Shown: positions 20,213 to 64,000 of the stretch, one piece after another
How positions within the stretch are numbered: position 1 is the stretch's first letter
Layout: the number at the start of each line of letters is the position of its first letter
NCBI RefSeq assembly: GCF_964063345.1
Contig: NZ_OZ061318.1
Span: 4,464,001-4,528,000 of the forward strand
Direction of reading: 5' to 3'
Length of the DNA stretch: 64,000 nt
Source: Pseudomonas lini
GTDB taxonomy: Bacteria; Pseudomonadota; Gammaproteobacteria; Pseudomonadales; Pseudomonadaceae
Position numbers and translations under genes: made by a program
Notes under the pieces: model-generated
Databases searched by the model: none
The model's input: the letters and a program-made list of their open reading frames with translations, nothing else
Told to the model about the DNA's origin: nothing

Positions 20213-20357
20213 TATAAAATGCGCCGCTTTCCGGGGATACCCTGGAAGGCTTAAATCCACACACGTGTCGACACGATGACCTGGGTGCCTTCAGCTGATG
20301 CTGCTGGTTGGTCATTGGGATACGTGGAGGCCAAACCCGACTTATTAAGGAACTATC
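20213..20357 (+). promoter_or_regulatory. rpsB promoter and long leader
   Basis: In the 373-base map-rpsB gap a TATAAA (20213-20218) forms a likely -10. About 140 bases of leader follow, containing short self-complementary stretches before AAGGAACTATC-ATG. In E. coli and relatives S2 represses its own operon through the rpsB leader. Such control here is inferred from position and length, not from a matched motif. The remainder of the gap would hold the map promoter. Confidence 0.45.
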
Positions 20358-55136: not shown

Positions 55137-55267
55137 TGTGTCGACGGAAAGACACGCCCTTCAAGGAAGAGGGGAACGGACATCGCAGGAAGCGGTTCAT
55201 CAGGACGATGAAAAGGAACACAAGGAATAGGGAAAAAATGTGGGCGGGTCATACCGCCCCTTTTTTT
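55137..55267 (+). ncRNA. rsmZ: Small regulatory RNA RsmZ
   Basis: Gac-controlled RNA that titrates the translational repressors RsmA/RsmE. The location between rpoS and fdxA is the standard rsmZ locus. The sequence starts TGTGTCGACGG, carries nine GGA motifs (55146, 55165, 55173, 55178, 55188, 55203, 55215, 55224, 55231), several as A-GGA or C-GGA in predicted loops (CGCAGGAAGCG; CATCAGGACGATG), and ends in the terminator GGGCGG-GTCATA-CCGCCC plus seven Ts. The 5' end is estimated within a few bases. It has its own promoter and upstream GacA palindrome. Confidence 0.93.
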
Positions 55268-55787: not shown

Positions 55788-58367
55788 TTAGATCCGTGTC
55801 TTTAATGTATAGAGCATTTCGAGTGCACGACGCGGTGTCATGTCATCCAGATCAAGTTTGGCCAGTTCATCCAGTACCGGATGCGGCAGGCTGGCGAACA
55901 TGTCGCTCTGCTGCGGCGCGGCCGGTTTACCTTTGGTTGGCTTTGGAACTTCATGAGGCAACGCTGTAGATTCCAGTCGGCTCAGATGCTCGCGAGCACG
56001 CACGATTACTTCGCTCGGCACACCAGCCAACTGCGCAACCGCCAGGCCATAGCTCTGGCTGGCAGGCCCAGGCAACACGTGGTGCAGGAACACGATGCGT
56101 TCGTTGTGCTCAGTGGCATTGAGGTGCACGTTGGCCACCAGCGGCTGGGCTTCCGGCAGCACTGTCAGCTCGAAATAATGTGTGGCGAACAATGTGTAGG
56201 CCCGCAGTTGCGCCAAGCGCTCTGCCGCGGCCCAGGCCAGGGACAGACCGTCGAAGGTGCTGGTGCCGCGACCGACTTCGTCCATCAGCACCAAGCTGCG
56301 TTCGGTGGCGTTGTGCAGGATGTTCGCGGTTTCGCTCATTTCGACCATGAAGGTCGATCGTCCACCCGCCAGGTCATCGCTGGAACCGATCCGGGTGAAG
56401 ATTCGGTCTACCAAGGACAATTCGCAACTGGCCGCCGGCACGAAACTGCCGATATGCGCCAGCAGTACGATCAATGCGGTCTGACGCATGTAGGTGGATT
56501 TACCGCCCATGTTCGGACCGGTGATCACCAGCATGCGGGTGCTGTCGTCGAGGCTAAGGTCGTTCGCCACGAACGGCGTGGTGAGTACTTGCTCGACCAC
56601 CGGATGGCGACCCTGGGTGATGCGCATGCACGGCTCGCTGACGAAACGCGGGCAGTTCAGGTCCAGATTCAGTGCGCGCTCGGCGAGGTTGCTCAGCACG
56701 TCCAGCTCGGCCAGTGCGGCGGCCGTGTCTTGCAAGGGCGGCAATTGGGCGATCAAGTCTTCGAGCAGCGCTTCGTAGAGCATTTTCTCGCGAGCCAGGG
56801 CGCGGCTCTTGGCTGACAGTGCCTTGTCTTCGAACGCCTTCAGTTCTGGCGTGATGAAGCGCTCGGCACCTTTGAGGGTCTGCCGGCGAATATAGTCCGC
56901 AGGCGCCGATTCAGCCTGCTTGCTCGGCAACTCGATGAAGTAACCGTGAATCCGGTTGTAGCCGACCTTCAAGTGCGACAGACCGGTGCGGGCCTTTTCA
57001 CGCGCTTCGAGATCGATCAGGAACTGCCCGGCGTTTTCGCTGAGCGATTGCAGATCGTCCAACTCGGCGTCGTAACCGGTTTTCAACACGCCACCGTCAC
57101 GGATGACGGCGGGCGGGTTGTCGATAATGGCTTTTTCCAGCAGCGCCGCCAGTTCCGGATAGGTGCTGGTGGTCGTCGCCAGTTGAATGATGTGCGGAGC
57201 CTCAAGCTCGGCCATCGCTACCTGCAACTCTGGCAGTGCACCGAGGGCATCGCGCAGACGCGCCAAGTCACGAGGACGGGCATTGCGCAGGCCGATCCGC
57301 GCCAGAATCCGCTCGATGTCACCGATTTCCTTGAGCTGCGGTTGCAGTTTCTCGAAGCGGTAACCATCGAGCAGGCAGGTAATCGAAGTCTGGCGCGCCA
57401 GCAGTACGGTCAAATCCCGCAGCGGACGGTTCAGCCAGCGAGTCAGCAAGCGGCTGCCCATGGCGGTCTGGCAGCGATCGACCACCGATTGCAAGGTGTT
57501 GTCGCGACCGCCGGCCAGGTTGGTGTCCAGTTCCAGGTTGCGACGGCTCGCGCCGTCCAGCACCACAGTGTCGTCCAGGCGTTCATGACGCAGGCTGCGC
57601 AAGTGCGGCAGGGCGGTGCGCTGGGTTTCCTTGGCGTAGCTGAGCAGGCAGCCAGCAGCGCCGATCGCCAGGGTCAGGTTCTCGCAGCCGAAACCTTTCA
57701 GGTCCTGGGTGGAAAACTGCTGGCAAAGACTTTTCAACGCCGAGTCGCGCTCGAAATCCCACGGCGCACGGCGACGAACCCCACGGCGCTTTTCCGCCGG
57801 CAGGTCTTTCGGCCAGTCGTCCGGGATCATCAGCTCTACCGGATTGACCCGCTCCAGTTCCGCCAGCAGGTTTTCCCAGCCTTTGATCTCCAGCACAGTG
57901 AAGTTGCCGCTGGTGATGTCCAGCACCGCCAGACCGAACAGACGCTCGTCACCCAGCACCGCCGCGATCAGGTTGTCCCGACGCTCATCCAGCAGCGCTT
58001 CATCGCTGACCGTGCCGGGGGTGATGATCCGCACCACCTGACGATCCACCGGGCCTTTGCTGGTGGCCGGGTCGCCGACCTGCTCACAAATCACCACCGA
58101 CTCGCCGAGCTTCACCAGTTTCGCCAGGTAACCTTCCGCGGCGTGGTAAGGAATCCCACACATCGGAATCGCCTGACCCGCCGATTGCCCACGAGCCGTC
58201 AGGGTGATGTCCAGCAACTTGGCGGCCTTCTTCGCGTCTTCATAGAAGATCTCGTAGAAGTCGCCCATGCGATAGAACATCAGCTGGTCAGGGTGCTGGT
58301 TCTTCAGGCGCCAGTACTGCTGCATCATTGGCGTGTGGCTGGATAAATCTGAAATTGCTTTATTCAT
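55788..58367 (-). CDS. mutS: DNA mismatch repair protein MutS
   Basis: Mismatch recognition ATPase. 859 residues. The mismatch-binding Phe-X-Glu is in [16 protein letters not shown] (about 34-49). Walker [10 protein letters not shown] (about 617-625), Walker [16 protein letters not shown], and the [10 protein letters not shown] switch follow. The tetramerisation tail is present. ATG 58367 gives [19 protein letters not shown]; the frame is open to 58475 but that stretch is not family-like. In many pseudomonads the next gene is cinA then recA; here the accessory cassette intervenes. Confidence 0.97.
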
Positions 58368-58674
58368 CAGTGGCTTATGGATAAATATCAAAGTCTTGGG
58401 CGGAAATGGGCGTTTCGATTCGCAAATTGCGACTCTATAGCCTCGCGGGGTCAGCACATGACGCAAGGTTAACATGCCTGGTGATTGTGAGTCGGGAGCC
58501 GGCAGCGTTGGGGGCTTTTCTATGATGCCTGAGCATTTGCGCTTGCGGCGGCGTCTCGACGGTATTGCGAAAGTAGTGGGGTGAGCGGCAGAGGTGCCTG
58601 GATCGAACCTAAGCGGTGTATCATGCTGCGCGATCTTTTTTAATTACTCCTTTAAGCATTGAAGTGAACTTTAA
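58368..58674. other. mutS / glycan-cassette divergent intergenic region
   Basis: A 307-base gap with no gene I can support. A TATCAT at 58619-58624 could be a -10 for the cassette, without a convincing -35. The last 50 bases turn AT-rich (a run of six Ts, then TTAAGCATTGAAG). No REP, IS end or repeat of mutS sequence is seen. Confidence 0.5.
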
Positions 58675-59691
58675 ATGGATTTTTATCCCTGTTTCCTATC
58701 CGTGGTTTTCGTCGTGCGCAATCAAGCGCTCTCGATCGAGAAAATCCTCACGGATGCCGCGTCTGTTATCGGCCAGATTGTCAGTGATTATGAGCTGATC
58801 ATCGTCGACAACGCCTCGGACGACGACAGTGTTGCCGTCATGAAACGTTTGACCGGTGAACAGGGACTGGCCAATCTGCAGGTGTATGCCCTGACTCAGG
58901 AAGTAGACGCCGACGCGGCCTCTTGGGTCGGAATGGAGAATGCGCTAGGGGATTTCGTGGCGGTCATCGATCCGTTGGCGGATGACATCGGCTTCTTGCC
59001 TGAAATGCTGGATCAGGCGGTCAGAGGTGCCGACGTGGTGTTTGCCAACAATGAGCAGAAACCGGTGCAGAGTCTGGCGTACCGCTCGGCGTTCACGCTG
59101 TTTCATGGGCTTTATAACTGGTTCAACGGTGTGCACCTCGCCAAAGAGGCCCCGTTCTACCGCATCCTCAGTAAAAGCGTGATCAATTTCATTCTTCAGC
59201 ACCCGCAGCCGACGGTCACTTATCGTCATTTGCCGGCTACCGGTGGGTTTTCCCGTGCCTACCTGAGTTACAGCTCGATGCCCAAAGCGTGCCCGAAGAA
59301 ACGCTTGGGTGAGAGCATCGACCGTGGCATGCGCCTGCTGGTCTCGACCACCCGAGCGCCGATGCGTCTGGTAACAACGCTGTCGCTGTTCGGGGCCGTG
59401 GCCAATCTGGTCTATTGCGTTTATGTGGTCGCCGTCGGTCTGTTGAAAACCGATGTGGCACCGGGCTGGATCAGTGTTTCGTTGCAGCAGTCAGGGATGT
59501 TTTTCCTTATCTCTCTGGTGCTACTGGTGTTGGGCGAGTACATCCTGAACATGGCCAGCCTGTCAAATGAGGGGCCCAGATACCATGTGGGTCAGGAATT
59601 CACCAGTGCGCGCATGACCCGTCTGGAGAAACTGAATATCGAAGAGGTGAGTTCAAAGCCGGCCACGGTCGTCAGTGACAGGGCTTCCTGA
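58675..59691 (+). CDS. Membrane-anchored GT2 glycosyltransferase
   Basis: 338 residues. The N-terminal GT-A domain (about 5-215) opens LSVVFVVRNQALSIEKILTD and has the nucleotide-binding IIVDNASDD (42-50). The acidic site reads VIDPLADD (97-104) rather than the usual DADLQ-type motif. Two C-terminal membrane helices (about 232-257 and 272-292) and a polar tail follow, the layout of GtrB/DPM-type enzymes that load sugars on polyprenyl phosphate. Specificity unknown. It is the first gene of the cassette. The start has only AAGTGA upstream and the stop shares its A with the next ATG (TGATG). Confidence 0.85.
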   Translation: MDFYPCFLSVVFVVRNQALSIEKILTDAASVIGQIVSDYELIIVDNASDDDSVAVMKRLTGEQGLANLQVYALTQEVDADAASWVGMENALGDFVAVIDPLADDIGFLPEMLDQAVRGADVVFANNEQKPVQSLAYRSAFTLFHGLYNWFNGVHLAKEAPFYRILSKSVINFILQHPQPTVTYRHLPATGGFSRAYLSYSSMPKACPKKRLGESIDRGMRLLVSTTRAPMRLVTTLSLFGAVANLVYCVYVVAVGLLKTDVAPGWISVSLQQSGMFFLISLVLLVLGEYILNMASLSNEGPRYHVGQEFTSARMTRLEKLNIEEVSSKPATVVSDRAS

Positions 59692-60848
59692 TGCAGAACC
59701 GGCATCCCGATCAGGATGTGGTGGTGATCGGCGGCGGGTTTTACGGTGCTGTCATCGCTGTTTACCTGGCCAGGCAACGTGGCCTCAAGCGTGTAGTGCT
59801 CGTGGAGCGGGAACCGCAGCTAATGACGCGCGCCTCCTACAATAATCAGGCGCGGGTGCATAACGGTTTTCACTACCCGCGTAGCTTTACCACGGCCTAT
59901 CGCAGCCGGGTCAATTTGCCCCGTTTTGTCCGCGACTGGCCAGAGGCGGTCAAGACTGACCTCACCAAGCTCTACGCCATCGCCCGCCGCAACTCGAAAT
60001 GCACGGCTCGGCAGTTCGAGCGGTTTTGCCGGAACATCGGTGCCGAGATCCAGGTAGCGGACCCAGGCTTGCGTGCACTGTTTGACCCCCGTCTGATCGA
60101 AGAAGTGTTTCTGGTTGAGGAGCACGCGTTCGACAGCACGAAACTGGCCGCCTGGGCTGAGCGTGAACTCAGCGAGAGCGGGGTGCAGATTCGTTATCAG
60201 ACCCGAGTGACGGCGATTTCGAGATCCGCTGACGCAGCGCTGAACGTCACGGTTCAGAGACGCGACGGTATCCTGGAGCAGTTGTCCAGCCGGTATGTAT
60301 TCAACTGCAGTTACAGCGGCCTCAATCAGCTGACGGGAGATTTCCCCGGCGTCAGCACCGGTCTGAAGCAGGAGATCACCGAGATGGCACTGATGCAGAT
60401 GCCTCCGGCTCTGGACGACTTGGGGGTAACAGTGATGGATGGGCCATTTTTTTCGATGATGCCATTCCCGGCTCGCGGTCTGCATACATTGTCCCATGTC
60501 CGCTATACCCCGCATTTGCACTGGAATGACCAGCAGGGTCTCGATCCCTACCGAAAACTGGCGCAATACGACCGTGTCAGCCGTGTGGATCGGATGATTC
60601 GCGACGTCGGTCGCTACATCCCCGCGATGCTCGATGCGCGCTATGTGGAGTCGCTGTTCGAAATCAAAACCGTGCTGGTGAAGAATGAGAGTGACGATGG
60701 TCGGCCCATTCTGTTTGAGAAACATGCCGAGCTGCCGGGTTGTTATTCGGTGTTGGGCGGAAAAATCGACAATGTTTACGATGTTCTGGAAAAGCTCGAT
60801 TCGGAAGAATTTCCAATGAGTCAGCTGGGGAACAGCCAGGAGCAATAA
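59691..60848 (+). CDS. FAD-dependent oxidoreductase (DAO fold)
   Basis: 385 residues. N-terminal dinucleotide motif VVVIGGGFYGAVIAVYLARQ (10-29) ending at the ribose-binding acid in VLVERE, and a late GGKIDNVYDVLEKL FAD-contact segment. The block RASYNNQARVHNGFHYPRS (about 46-64) recalls oxidases found in surface-polysaccharide clusters. No signal peptide or membrane segment. The substrate is unknown; given its neighbours, a sugar or sugar-nucleotide is likely (inference). Coupled to the GT2 gene by TGATG. The next gene begins after its TAA with no gap. Confidence 0.8.
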   Translation: MQNRHPDQDVVVIGGGFYGAVIAVYLARQRGLKRVVLVEREPQLMTRASYNNQARVHNGFHYPRSFTTAYRSRVNLPRFVRDWPEAVKTDLTKLYAIARRNSKCTARQFERFCRNIGAEIQVADPGLRALFDPRLIEEVFLVEEHAFDSTKLAAWAERELSESGVQIRYQTRVTAISRSADAALNVTVQRRDGILEQLSSRYVFNCSYSGLNQLTGDFPGVSTGLKQEITEMALMQMPPALDDLGVTVMDGPFFSMMPFPARGLHTLSHVRYTPHLHWNDQQGLDPYRKLAQYDRVSRVDRMIRDVGRYIPAMLDARYVESLFEIKTVLVKNESDDGRPILFEKHAELPGCYSVLGGKIDNVYDVLEKLDSEEFPMSQLGNSQEQ

Positions 60849-61628
60849 ATGAACAATGCATTGATAGGTTTCTCGGGTTTTGTGGGAGGGACGCTACTCA
60901 AGCAAGCGCAGTTCGAGTCGCTTTATCGTTCGACCAACATCGCCGATATTGAAGGGCAATCGTTCGATACGGTGGTATGTGCTGGTGCGCCTGCGCAGAA
61001 GTGGATCGCCAACCGTGAACCTGAAGCCGATCGATTGAAAATCGAAGGTTTGATCGCCCACCTGAAGACACTCACTTGTCGCCGGTTCATCCTCATCAGC
61101 ACAGTCGATGTGTTCAAGAAAGCGGTGGACGTCGATGAAGACACGCCTGTGGATGAGGCTGGGTTGCACGCTTATGGTTTGCACCGTCGTTTGCTGGAGA
61201 AGTTCGTCGAGGCGCATTTCCCCGAGCACTTGATCGTTCGCCTTCCAGGGCTGGTAGGCCCGGGCCTGCGCAAGAACGTGATCTTCGACTTCCTGAATGA
61301 CAACAATCTGCAGGCGATCGATAGCCGTGGCGTGTTTCAGTTCTATCCGATGGTCAATCTCTGGTATGACATCCAATTGGCACTGCACGCCGGACTGAAG
61401 CTGGTGCACCTCACCGCAGCGCCGATCAGCGTGGCGGATGTTTCGCTGGGCGGGTTCGGTCAGACGTTCAACACCACATTGGGTAACCCGATCGGGTTCT
61501 ACGACATGCAAACGCGCCATGCGTCGGTATTTGGGGCATCCGGTCGCTATCAGTACAGCGCCCGTGAAACCCTGCAGGCGGTCAGGGCCTATGCGCAATC
61601 CGAGCCATGTGCGGTCGTGAATCCATGA
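60849..61628 (+). CDS. Short SDR-like sugar-nucleotide epimerase/reductase
   Basis: 259 residues, shorter than typical extended SDRs. Rossmann motif ALIGFSGFVGGTLLKQ (4-19), a serine region FILISTVDVFK (80-90), and the catalytic tyrosine in HAYGLHRRLLEKF (Y109). The residue four after the tyrosine is Arg113, where the classical YxxxK has lysine. The C-terminal half holds GLVGPGLRKNVIFD and a substrate-lid-like region. It may be an epimerase, dehydratase or reductase; the sequence does not decide. Its stop overlaps the next start (ATGA). Confidence 0.78.
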   Translation: MNNALIGFSGFVGGTLLKQAQFESLYRSTNIADIEGQSFDTVVCAGAPAQKWIANREPEADRLKIEGLIAHLKTLTCRRFILISTVDVFKKAVDVDEDTPVDEAGLHAYGLHRRLLEKFVEAHFPEHLIVRLPGLVGPGLRKNVIFDFLNDNNLQAIDSRGVFQFYPMVNLWYDIQLALHAGLKLVHLTAAPISVADVSLGGFGQTFNTTLGNPIGFYDMQTRHASVFGASGRYQYSARETLQAVRAYAQSEPCAVVNP

Positions 61629-62461
61629 GGCTGGCTATTTCCAACATCGCCTGGGACGTCGCTGAAGATCAAGCGGTGGCCGAATTGCTGCAACGCTATG
61701 GCGTCGATGCCATCGATATTGCGCCAGGCAAATACTTTCCCGTACCAGCAGATGCTAGCGCCCAAGACATCGCACGGGTCAAAAGCTGGTGGGCTGAGCG
61801 TGGGATCGAAATCACCGGCATGCAGTCATTGCTGTTCGGCACCACCGGACTGAACGTGTTTGGCTCCGATGAAAGTCAGACCGCGCTGTTGCGACACCTG
61901 AGCGCAATCTGCCGGATTGCCGGGGAACTGGGGGCCACGCGGCTGGTATTCGGTTCGCCGAAAAATCGCGATCGAACCGGCCTGAATGATCAGCAGGCTC
62001 TGGACGCAGCAGTGAGGTTTTTCCGGAAGTTGGGCGATGTCGCCCAAGACAATGGTGTCTTCATTTGCCTGGAACCGAACCCGGTCTGCTACGGCGCGAA
62101 CTTCATGACCACCAGTCCTGAAACTGCGCATGTGGTGCGCCAGGTTGCTCATCCCGCCATCCGAATGCAATTCGATACCGGTGCGCTGGCCATCAACGAT
62201 GAAAACCCTCTGACGCTGTTGGAAGATAGTGCCGAGCTGATCGGCCATGTGCATGCCAGTGAACCGAACCTGGTGCCGTTGGGTGACGGTGGCACCGAAC
62301 ACGGGAGTATGAGCGCTGCCGTGCAGCGCTATCTGCCGGAGCATGTGGTGTCCATCGAAATGGTCGCCACGGCCAACGAGCCGCATATCGTCTCGATTGA
62401 ACGTGCGTTGGCCAAAGCCATTCAGTTCTACGGCGTTCAAGATGAGGGGATTGTTCAATGA
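61625..62461 (+). CDS. TIM-barrel sugar (phosphate) isomerase/epimerase
   Basis: 278 residues of the xylose-isomerase-like AP endonuclease 2 family. Likely metal ligands: Glu in ICLEPNP (about 144), Asp in MQFDTGAL (about 180), His in GHVHASEP (about 205) and Glu in VSIEMVA (about 240), the E-D-H-E set of the family. ATG 61625 overlaps the previous gene. It probably isomerises a free or phosphorylated sugar or keto-intermediate for this pathway. Overlaps the next gene by ATGA. Confidence 0.82.
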   Translation: MRLAISNIAWDVAEDQAVAELLQRYGVDAIDIAPGKYFPVPADASAQDIARVKSWWAERGIEITGMQSLLFGTTGLNVFGSDESQTALLRHLSAICRIAGELGATRLVFGSPKNRDRTGLNDQQALDAAVRFFRKLGDVAQDNGVFICLEPNPVCYGANFMTTSPETAHVVRQVAHPAIRMQFDTGALAINDENPLTLLEDSAELIGHVHASEPNLVPLGDGGTEHGSMSAAVQRYLPEHVVSIEMVATANEPHIVSIERALAKAIQFYGVQDEGIVQ

Positions 62462-62814
62462 AGTGGATGATTCTGATCCTGGGCATCTTGTCCAACGCCT
62501 CAGCCAGTGTGCTGATCAAGATTGCCATGACACCGCCTCGTCGGTTTCCGTCGCCTGCCGACCCGATGAGTGCGTTGAACAACTGGCCGTTCTGGCTGGG
62601 ACTGGGTCTTTATGGCACAGCGTTCCTGCTCTATGCCGCGGCACTCGCTCGTCTGCCACTGAACGTTGCACACCCTGTGTTGACGGCGGGCGCTGTGGCG
62701 GCCGTCGCTCTGTCCTCCGTCCTTGTTTTTCGTGAACCCTTCCACTGGACGACAGGGGCGGGGATTTTATTGGTAATTTCCGGCGTAGCGCTGATTACGG
62801 CGCGCGTGGCCTGA
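62458..62814 (+). CDS. Small SMR/EamA-like membrane protein, possible lipid-linked sugar flippase
   Basis: 118 residues, four predicted membrane helices (about 3-22, 45-63, 68-88, 97-116). The LPLNVAHPVLTAGAVAAVAL segment fits the small multidrug resistance fold. The glutamate of EmrE-type drug exporters is missing from helix 1 (LSNASASVLIKIA), as in ArnE/ArnF, which flip undecaprenyl-linked aminoarabinose. A flippase role is inferred from this and from the two flanking GT2 genes. The stop shares its A with the next ATG. Confidence 0.8.
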   Translation: MKWMILILGILSNASASVLIKIAMTPPRRFPSPADPMSALNNWPFWLGLGLYGTAFLLYAAALARLPLNVAHPVLTAGAVAAVALSSVLVFREPFHWTTGAGILLVISGVALITARVA

Positions 62815-63638
62815 TGGAACACAAAATGACGTCTTCTGTAATTGACCCTGTCGTACGCAGCACCTGGCAGGTACCTGCCTTTGATACACCGCTGTGGCTG
62901 GGCCGTCAGCATGCCTTTTGCGCGGTCATTCCGCTGATTAACGAAGGTGAACGGATCAAGAACCTGCTGGCCAGGATGGCTGCACTGGGCATCGCCTCCC
63001 ACGCCGACATCATTATTGTCGATGGCGGCAGCACCGATGGCTCTCTGGTGTTGGATGCGCTGCAACAGGTTGGTGTTCGTGGCCTGCTGGTGAAGACCGG
63101 CCCAGGCAAGCTCAGTGCACAATTGCGCTGCGCCTATGCATTTGCCCTGGATCAGGGTTACGAGGGCATTGTCACCATCGACGGCAACGACAAGGACGAT
63201 CCTGATGCCATCCCGCGTTTTATCGAGGCTCTCCAGCAGGGTGTCGACTTTGTCCAGGCCTCGCGCTTCGTGGACGGTGGCGTCGCGGAAAACACCCCTG
63301 CATCGCGGGACTTTGCAATTCGCTTCATTCACGCACCGATGTTGAGTCTGACTTCCGGTTTCAAATGGACCGACACCACCCAAGGATTCCGCGCATACAG
63401 CCGAAAGCTGTTGCTGGATCCGAAGGTAGCGATTTTTCGCGATGTGTTCATGACTTACGAGTTGCTGGCGTATCTGTCTTATCGCGCGCCAAAGCTGGGT
63501 TACCGCTGTGTGGAGTTGCCGACAGTGCGGCGCTACCCCAAAGGCGAGGTACCGACGAAGATCAGCGCCTTCAAGGGCAATCTGTCGGTGTTGGAGATAC
63601 TGTTTAAGGCGTGTCGGGGCGGGTTCAATCCCACATAA
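62814..63638 (+). CDS. GT2 glycosyltransferase (DPM/GtrB-like, soluble)
   Basis: 274 residues. AVIPLINEGERIKNLL (37-52), IIIVDGGSTDGS (66-77), the acidic site TIDGNDKDDPDAI (121-133) and the acceptor loop TDTTQGFRAYSRKLL (186-200) are as in polyprenyl-phosphate sugar synthases. No C-terminal membrane helices are seen, unlike the first GT2. ATG 62814 overlaps the SMR gene (TGATG); ATG 62826 is an alternative with no better ribosome site. Last gene of the tightly coupled six-gene unit. Confidence 0.85.
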   Translation: MEHKMTSSVIDPVVRSTWQVPAFDTPLWLGRQHAFCAVIPLINEGERIKNLLARMAALGIASHADIIIVDGGSTDGSLVLDALQQVGVRGLLVKTGPGKLSAQLRCAYAFALDQGYEGIVTIDGNDKDDPDAIPRFIEALQQGVDFVQASRFVDGGVAENTPASRDFAIRFIHAPMLSLTSGFKWTDTTQGFRAYSRKLLLDPKVAIFRDVFMTYELLAYLSYRAPKLGYRCVELPTVRRYPKGEVPTKISAFKGNLSVLEILFKACRGGFNPT

Positions 63639-63663
63639 TTCGACATCCAGTCTTGCAAGAAAA

Positions 63664-63691
63664 AGCGGCGCCCAATGGCGCCGTTGTTTAG
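63664..63691 (+). terminator. Hairpin after the cassette
   Basis: AGCGGCGCC pairs with GGCGCCGTT around CAAT (about 63664-63685), followed by GTTTA. It lies about 25 bases after the last GT2 stop and may separate the six-gene unit from the next gene. Confidence 0.6.
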
Positions 63692-63777
63692 CGAGATGAA
63701 TTTTCAGTAACGTCTCCGAGCAATATCTAGTCTTCTCGTACTCCCAATTTATTGTAGATTTTTTATGAGAGGTATTG

Positions 63778-64000
63778 GTGCTAAATATACTATTGATATT
63801 CTTTGTTTTTCTTGGGCTTGTAGCCTTTGTCTCAAGGGTTGTTTCTTCAAGATATCGCGCCGAGCATCCGGGTTCATTCGTATTTGCAATGGTCATTCTC
63901 TATATCTTCGGATGCGTGCAACAACTCGATCTCGGGGTAAAGATCGTTATTGGTTGCGCGGTAATTGGAGGATGTCTAGGTGCGTGGGCACTTGTGACTG
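63778..64000 (+). CDS. Membrane protein, N-terminal part (runs off the right edge)
   Basis: Translation from GTG 63778 gives VLNILLIFFVFLGLVAFVSR, a first membrane helix, then a charged loop (SSRYRAEHPGSF), and two more hydrophobic stretches (FAMVILYIFGCV and IVIGCAVIGGCLGAWALV). It stays open to base 64000. GAGAGG precedes the GTG by about six bases. A competing frame from ATG 63764 is also open but has no membrane pattern and odd composition. The DNA is AT-richer than upstream. A multi-spanning GtrC-like glycosyltransferase or polymerase would fit the cassette, but this is a guess from 74 residues. Confidence 0.65.
   Translation, partial: MLNILLIFFVFLGLVAFVSRVVSSRYRAEHPGSFVFAMVILYIFGCVQQLDLGVKIVIGCAVIGGCLGAWALVT

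Follow-up and report, generated by a model that had tools for sequence, protein, structure and literature searches.

A recurring gtr-like gene cassette with a putative sugar-editing triad beside mutS in Pseudomonas lini

The window analyzed here is a 64,000-nucleotide stretch of the Pseudomonas lini chromosome (NZ_OZ061318.1, positions 4,464,001 to 4,528,000 of the forward strand; 6.58 Mb in one contig), and close to its end it carries six contiguous open reading frames on the plus strand, g1 to g6, adjoining mutS. These six genes form a recurring coupled unit, and we consider it fairly probable (roughly 0.6) that they constitute a mobile cassette of the gtr-like "load-flip-transfer" type, spread horizontally and equipped with its own sugar-editing triad. 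A second stretch, L002, reaches past the end of the window and shows the rest of a seventh gene, g7, together with the tailocin genes that follow it. The features are:

58675..59691, plus strand: g1, GT2-fold protein with two C-terminal membrane helices, GtrB/ArnC homologue (PF00535)
59691..60848, plus strand: g2, DAO-type FAD oxidoreductase (PF01266, 2e-23)
60849..61628, plus strand: g3, short extended short-chain dehydrogenase/reductase (SDR) with YxxxR for YxxxK (PF01370, weak)
61607..62461, plus strand: g4, AP_endonuc_2 TIM barrel of the ketose-3-epimerase/YcjR kind (PF01261, 3e-22)
62458..62814, plus strand: g5, SMR/EamA small membrane protein (PF00892, PF00893; PF10639 marginally below cut-off)
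62814..63638, plus strand: g6, GT2 without membrane helices, DPMS/AglJ-like (PF00535)
63666..63683, no strand assigned: terminator-like hairpin of 7 pairs, all GC, between g6 and g7 (minus-strand report L002:5667-5684)
63775..64000, continuing to L002:7566, plus strand: first part of g7, large polytopic membrane protein, probable GT-C glycosyltransferase
55788-58475, minus strand: mutS, the neighbor upstream of g1

A previous reading of the letters alone (the sequence-only reading) had described six coupled genes, each start overlapping or abutting the preceding stop, and both the reading frames and Pfam bear this out: the products are a GT2, an FAD oxidoreductase, an SDR, a TIM barrel, an SMR protein and a GT2, with junctions that abut or overlap by 1-22 bases. 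The longest overlap is probably an artifact of start choice, since the family alignment of g4 begins at its seventh codon (61625), which would leave a 4-base overlap with g3. That reading also had a membrane-protein gene following; the gene is real, but it stands apart from the coupled run, separated from g6 by 136 bases that contain the GC-rich hairpin, and its GC content is 0.44 vs. 0.57 for the cassette (window, 0.58). A promoter and terminator scan of the region returned no more sites than in shuffled sequence, the hairpin included.

To be a unit rather than a chance neighborhood, the six genes should travel together, and they do. Searches were made of 149 Pseudomonas genomes with g1, g2, g4 and g6 (E <= 1e-30) and of 398, these 149 included, with g3 (1e-40). 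Among the 149, g2 occurred in 10 and g1 in the same 10, while the 8 genomes with g6 were also the 8 with g3; g4 occurred in all of these and in one other (G086), where a lone g4 adjoins one polytopic gene. In the larger set g3 was present in 20 of 398 genomes, and all 20 hold g1-g6 together in one order; Pseudomonas genomes share ancestry, so that these counts are not independent events. One of the 20 has g1 in two frames, another has a stop in g2, and in some a further membrane gene separates g2 from g3. Beyond the genus, g3 was found in 2/274 Gammaproteobacteria and 4/299 genomes of the phylum, the source genome being counted in both. When a species-genome collection was scanned with the g2 alignment, at least 574 places were confirmed, of which 80 loci, picked by g2 alone, were examined; they came from Pseudomonas, Burkholderiales, Methylobacter, Legionella santicrucis, Nocardioides, Anaerolineae, Bdellovibrio and others. 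Here g1 was present in 79 loci, g3 in 72, g4 in 71, g6 in 70 and g5 in 65 (two Chloroflexota loci lack g5), and all six were present in 63. Several of the missing genes reflect contig ends, and 4/80 loci carry instead the variant described below. Because the set co-occurs across genomes in this way, as the sequence-only reading had anticipated, it is not a product of chance. The families are also abundant: database searches gave 4528 matches to g3 at E <= 0.001 and, for g2, 7977 of 7999 scored candidates. The best 120 matches to each of these two proteins were all at least 75% identical and bore generic names, with P. atacamensis and P. koreensis the closest named relatives of g2 among the matches listed. 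In Pseudomonas sp. T1-3-2 (L020/L062) a second, partial copy (g3-g4-g5 and part of g6) lies beside a complete cassette.

The feature that sets this cassette apart is the run g2-g3-g4. The AlphaFold2 model of g2 (predicted local distance difference test score, pLDDT, 89.7) has its best fold matches in glycine oxidase and E. coli GlpD, and its sequence profile matches L-alpha-glycerophosphate oxidase (4x9m, 2e-11). Kin of g2 are flavoenzymes, some of which turn a secondary alcohol into a ketone, and we propose from this kinship that g2 may oxidize a secondary hydroxyl. The best PDB profile match of g3 is dTDP-4-dehydrorhamnose reductase (5e-7). In tallies of active-site positions, restricted to rows with at least 70% query coverage and above a bit-score floor, g3 shows GxxGxxG, S84, Y109 and R113, the S, Y and R being present in 91/91 rows. 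It departs from canonical extended SDRs in the catalytic YxxxK, which in all 91 rows reads Y109-x3-R113; g3 is proposed to be a reductase. The metal and acid-base residues E156, D190, H216 and E251 of g4, common to E. coli YcjR and ketose 3-epimerases, occur in 92/92 rows. A g4 profile built without YcjR matched ketose 3-epimerases in the PDB at 1e-11, the higher score, and YcjR (6wn6) at 4e-7, and BLASTP of g4 against YcjR gave 6e-5.

The two GT2s do not appear equivalent when compared with GtrB. According to excerpts of the GtrB study, the DXD motif of that enzyme is D94/D96, and the D157N mutant and mutants of R122, R125 and R200 lose activity (PMC4728340). The g1 profile matches GtrB (5eke, E 8e-21) and ArnC (9hwj, 4e-20) over positions 8-306 of 337. 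Among 89 rows of g1, the D96 position is never Asp, the R122 position is never Arg, and Asp stands at the D157 position in one; the equivalent of D157 falls at residue 161 or 162 of the window's g1, of which 162 was tallied, and residue 161 showed no Asp in nine close rows. For g6 the best profile match is DPMS (5mlz, 2e-18), with an AglJ match of 1e-10 that lies far under the AglJ cut-off, and D123, N125, R151 and D187 are present in 85/85 rows, so that DGN replaces DXD, N125 taking the GtrB D96 position. Since residues essential in GtrB are missing from g1 and, apart from N125, kept in g6, the latter is the likelier enzyme. It is likely a polyprenyl-phosphate sugar synthase, and g1 is probably a catalytically dead, degenerate partner. 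A second g1-like stretch, with an internal stop, lies ~13 kb from a complete cassette in another genome (G115:C48:124460-125449).

For export, g5 is proposed to be the flippase of the lipid-linked sugar. Its NCBIfam matches include ArnE/ArnF, weakly and below cut-off, and its slot is held by GtrA instead of SMR in the variant loci. Among eight plasmid loci described below, the flippase is annotated as GtrA in six, all alphaproteobacterial, and as SMR in Psychrobacter; in Azospirillum none is annotated among these genes. Judging by the SMR relatives within such loci, the ones that were searched, we set aside drug efflux as the role of g5, given the GtrA replacements on the six plasmids and an SMR match inside the cassette in 65/80 of the g2-selected loci. 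Cassettes that bear g6 without an SMR match are L041, L046, L061, L066, L077 and L097.

Sequence past position 64,000, which the sequence-only reading had suggested would show the seventh gene, reveals g7 as a polytopic protein of 596 codons, followed by the R-tailocin. It has no Pfam match, and its family has an invariant WDE motif. For a g7 homologue, 21 of the first 22 VIA rows were GT-C enzymes or complexes, ArnT being the best match and the protein-modifying GT-Cs PMT, PglB and OST also appearing, from a model with a pLDDT of only 68. Foldseek gave nothing for g7 at E <= 0.001 with this quality of model, and the VIA and Foldseek lists also hold unrelated helical proteins. Neighboring loci show how changeable the position is: 84 polytopic frames adjoining cassettes fell into 28 clusters, while most core proteins share 55-85% identity with their counterparts in the window. 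We read g7 as a probable GT-C transferase in an exchangeable slot, and its lower GC content suggests that it probably has a different history from that of the cassette. One locus (L015:11007-14977, in the genome of L028) has a partial second g6 sandwiched between two different GT-C-like genes arranged in tandem, which is how a locus might look after recombination swapping the terminal gene.

In the mechanism that we propose, g6, anchored or assisted by g1, would load a hexose onto undecaprenyl phosphate. One ring hydroxyl would then be turned into a ketone by g2, with electrons passing to a flavin acceptor; g4 would invert the carbon adjacent to the ketone via an enediol, as YcjR does on 3-keto-glucosides; and g3 would reduce the ketone back, the net product being an unusual epimer of the starting hexose. 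The lipid-linked sugar would be flipped to the periplasm by g5 and transferred to a surface glycan by the exchangeable GT-C enzyme, here g7. We infer the direction and order of the reactions, the carbon positions, the acceptor, and that editing is lipid- rather than nucleotide-linked. The sequence-only reading had likewise proposed sugar making, lipid loading, flipping and transfer, and homology agrees with each step (the triad, the polyisoprenyl-phosphate glycosyltransferase family of g6, the SMR/GtrA slot and the GT-C-like g7); the comparison with GtrB adds that the two GT2s are not equivalent.

Departures from the standard arrangement bear on where the sugar is edited. In the variant, the SDR-TIM-SMR-GT2 block after g1-g2 is swapped for GT2b, an aldo/keto reductase and GtrA (L030, from the genome of L016, and L033, L037 and L038; also L017), so that a reductase, a flippase and a GT2 are still paired. 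Having no TIM barrel, it would invert one center by oxidation and reduction alone, as DprE1/DprE2 do. On plasmids, 10 of 72,556 records matched, all at <60% identity, and eight loci were read. Profiles find g1, g2, g3, g4 and g6 in 8/8, in orders that differ from the window; some of these profiles include sequences of the tested loci, and L119, L207 and L208, which lie outside the g1, g3, g4 and g6 profiles, still match. The set is the main cargo of a 10.8-kb Psychrobacter plasmid (L123), where g1 (24% identity) and g6 (48%) share one 592-codon open frame; this joint frame is an isolated instance, the plasmid record gives the GT2 part an annotation of its own, and the one related genome found (G1174) has only a g1-like match. 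In two Rhodobacterales plasmids (L120, L207) the g6 GT2 and a polytopic domain form a single protein (839 and 812 aa), and on L207 and L208 the cassette adjoins the exosortase genes xrtE and xrtD.

Viral sets added a different picture. One of 16 IMG/VR loci exceeded 50% identity (L103, with all six genes), and a search of 50,697 phage records gave one partial match of 33%; close relatives being this rare, we set aside the idea of a phage-borne cassette. Six IMG/VR contigs (L104, L109-L112, L117) have matches to g2-g3-g4 and none to g1 or g6 at E <= 1e-5, whereas g1 and g6 are both present in all eight plasmid loci and in L103. This distribution suggests that g1 belongs with the lipid-loading machinery and is dispensable for the triad family. 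In L112 (8473-9987) a single open frame next to a g2-like gene matches both the SDR (g3-like) and the TIM barrel (g4-like). On the 386-kb contig L104 (8129-13770) a distant FAD-SDR-TIM triad forms one overlapping run, flanked by thymidylate-kinase/thymidylate-synthase-like genes on one side and a T4-type beta-glucosyltransferase on the other, and DNA hypermodification with an edited sugar is a possible role; a search for its SDR in viral contigs found its own contig only.

The alternative to lipid-linked editing is a cytoplasmic one: the triad would act on a nucleotide sugar, which g6 would load onto the lipid only afterward, with g1 serving just to anchor g6. The triads that lack g1 and g6, including the one in the L104 DNA-modification operon, speak for it, as does the L123 frame, in which g1 is joined to g6 and not to g2. 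Against it, g1-g2 is the tightest pair of all (79/80 loci), kept even in the variant without g3-g6, which favors editing on the lipid, and to our knowledge YcjR-type chemistry has not been described on a nucleotide sugar; we regard this alternative as doubtful. A more specific and equally tentative extension of lipid-linked editing is that g1, a dead polyprenyl-phosphate glycosyltransferase, presents the lipid substrate to the flavin oxidase, so that the sugar would be oxidized, epimerized and reduced on undecaprenyl phosphate. The cassette would then be a portable lipid-linked editor serving various GT-Cs, and the soluble, g1-less version in the six viral-set contigs would edit other glycosides, in L104 perhaps the sugar of phage DNA.

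The acceptor might be a protein or an exopolysaccharide instead of lipopolysaccharide O-antigen. The two copies beside XrtE and XrtD and the protein-modifying GT-Cs among the VIA matches would fit that, but several loci contain Wzm/Wzt-like ABC export, dTDP-rhamnose, Wzz or sugar-transferase genes, and variation in the terminal enzyme would fit an acceptor that itself varies, as O-antigen does; on balance we hold a protein or exopolysaccharide acceptor to be possible though on the unlikely side. It is improbable that g1 works as a glycosyltransferase through atypical catalytic residues, the cassette transferring a disaccharide or two different sugars: g1 is full-length and conserved, with the GtrB D94 equivalent kept in 83/89 rows, but of the residues that are donor-binding or essential in GtrB, Asp at the D96 position and Arg at the R122 position are absent and Asp at the D157 position is present in only one row, and in alphaproteobacteria its GT2 motifs are eroded further.

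The position of the cassette next to a tailocin raises a last question. The genes that come after g7 (PrtR-like repressor, holin, tail sheath, baseplate J) are those of an R-tailocin, and mutS-cinA is a known site of pseudomonad tailocins in the excerpted text of PMC8319346. The span from mutS to the repressor is 7,423 bases here (gap L002:476-7707). A repressor search of 99 Pseudomonas genomes matched 61, and the best 30 of these 61 loci were read: the distance from mutS was 181-215 bases in 18 and 1.2-1.3 kb in 2 (one of them occupied by a Zeta toxin, L197), and mutS was not within ~1.4 kb of the repressor in 10, the source strain among them. A longer look at 8 of the other 9 placed mutS 1.5-8.6 kb from the repressor in 6; in the remaining 2, mutS did not turn up within about 9.5 kb. 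Elsewhere the cargo comprises, in L194, an acyltransferase-3 gene together with one for a group II intron protein and, in L189, a peptide-binding protein; varied inserts occur in L189, L192-L194 and L196-L198 besides L002. Since the gap also receives unrelated cargo, the cassette and g7 seem to fill a site open to other inserts. In the 398-genome search, with 13-20 kb read and hits counted without a filter against short mutS pieces, mutS, fdxA, repressor, holin and sheath were found in 0/19 other Pseudomonas cassettes. With only 1/20 Pseudomonas cassettes, that of the source strain, adjoining tailocin genes, a general tailocin accessory was rejected. That the cassette serves its neighboring tailocin, an O-antigen change shielding the producer from its own or related tailocins, is quite unlikely: it lies between mutS and the repressor, where another genome has the acyltransferase-3 gene, and excerpts of PMC8319346 report that pseudomonad sensitivity to several tailocins depends on O-antigen genes, but the markers are missing from the other cassettes, a repressor match appears in only 2/80 g2-selected loci and is weak (31-32%; L059, L063), and the same gap holds unrelated cargo such as the Zeta toxin. 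Elsewhere in the window, Rfam matched RsmZ (55137-55267, 128 bits) and t44 RNA (20240-20336, 71 bits) on the plus strand.

A search of open-licence PMC text found no paper on this gene set, and among the gtr, pentofuranose, DprE, Ycj and Arn systems compared there was no close match to a characterized pathway, which agrees with the sequence-only reading. As kin, fuzY of P. fluorescens SBW25, a member of a glycan-modifying operon, was considered and set aside, its reciprocal best match in PAO1 being reported as wapH. With ArnC-ArnEF-ArnT the cassette shares an ArnC-like GT2 fold, a putative SMR-type flippase and a probable GT-C transferase, ArnT being the best VIA match of the g7 homologue; in contrast to Arn, its terminal gene is variable and its locus patchy, and Pfam/NCBIfam found no ArnA, ArnB or ArnD family among the six proteins. 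The three-component pentofuranose systems have a lipid-phosphate sugar, a flippase, a GT-C and an auxiliary SDR epimerase, much as proposed for the cassette, but depend on phosphoribosyl pyrophosphate, whereas here there are a GT2, a flavoenzyme and a putative TIM-barrel epimerase (excerpts of Kelly et al., 2024, PMC11127046); Pfam domains of UbiA-like phosphoribosyl synthases or phosphatases were found in none of g1-g6 or g7. In mycobacterial arabinan synthesis, as outlined in the same excerpts, DprE1 oxidizes and DprE2 reduces a lipid-phosphate sugar, with a proposed SMR-type exporter (PMC11127046). The cassette differs in its third enzyme, the TIM-barrel epimerase. DprE1, moreover, belongs to a flavoprotein family other than that of g2.

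The same oxidize-epimerize-reduce logic underlies the 3-keto-glucoside/guloside conversion by E. coli YcjS-YcjR-YcjQ in excerpts of PMC11543891, and g4 appears to be a YcjR-type epimerase, a TIM barrel that would act on the carbon adjacent to the ketone between an oxidation and a reduction. The dehydrogenases differ, being a DAO flavoprotein (g2) and an SDR (g3) here, YcjQ and YcjS having been compared by description only. YcjQRS is catabolic and not tied to a lipid carrier. In the gtr (GtrABC) modules, which excerpts of PMC3688519 describe as horizontally mobile with families sorted by the last gene, we see the nearest relative in design. By profile g6 and g1 both match the GtrB/ArnC/DPMS family of polyisoprenyl-phosphate glycosyltransferases (g1 without the key residues, g6 with DGN), g5 would be the small four-helix flippase, with GtrA in relatives, and a variable polytopic protein, here a probable transferase, and horizontal mobility are common to both. 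A gtr module has three genes and draws on the common UDP-hexose pool, whereas the cassette counts seven with g7, has SMR in this strain, and holds in its conserved unit three more enzyme genes, the oxidoreductase-epimerase-reductase triad, as well as a second, degenerate GtrB homologue; that it is no classic gtr module had been said by the sequence-only reading too. On these homologies the cassette seems to work like a gtr module, yet lies outside the strict definition. Kelly et al. write, in the excerpted text, that they knew of no further epimerases in systems for side-chain glycosylation of O-antigen (PMC11127046). If our reading is correct, the cassette would extend the gtr paradigm by a stage in which the sugar itself is edited. 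It would offer a testable origin for the rare hexose epimers of surface glycans and would mark, at the genome level, the swapping of terminal transferases; the pairing of a pseudo-glycosyltransferase with a flavoprotein would be a new route for processing lipid-linked sugars.

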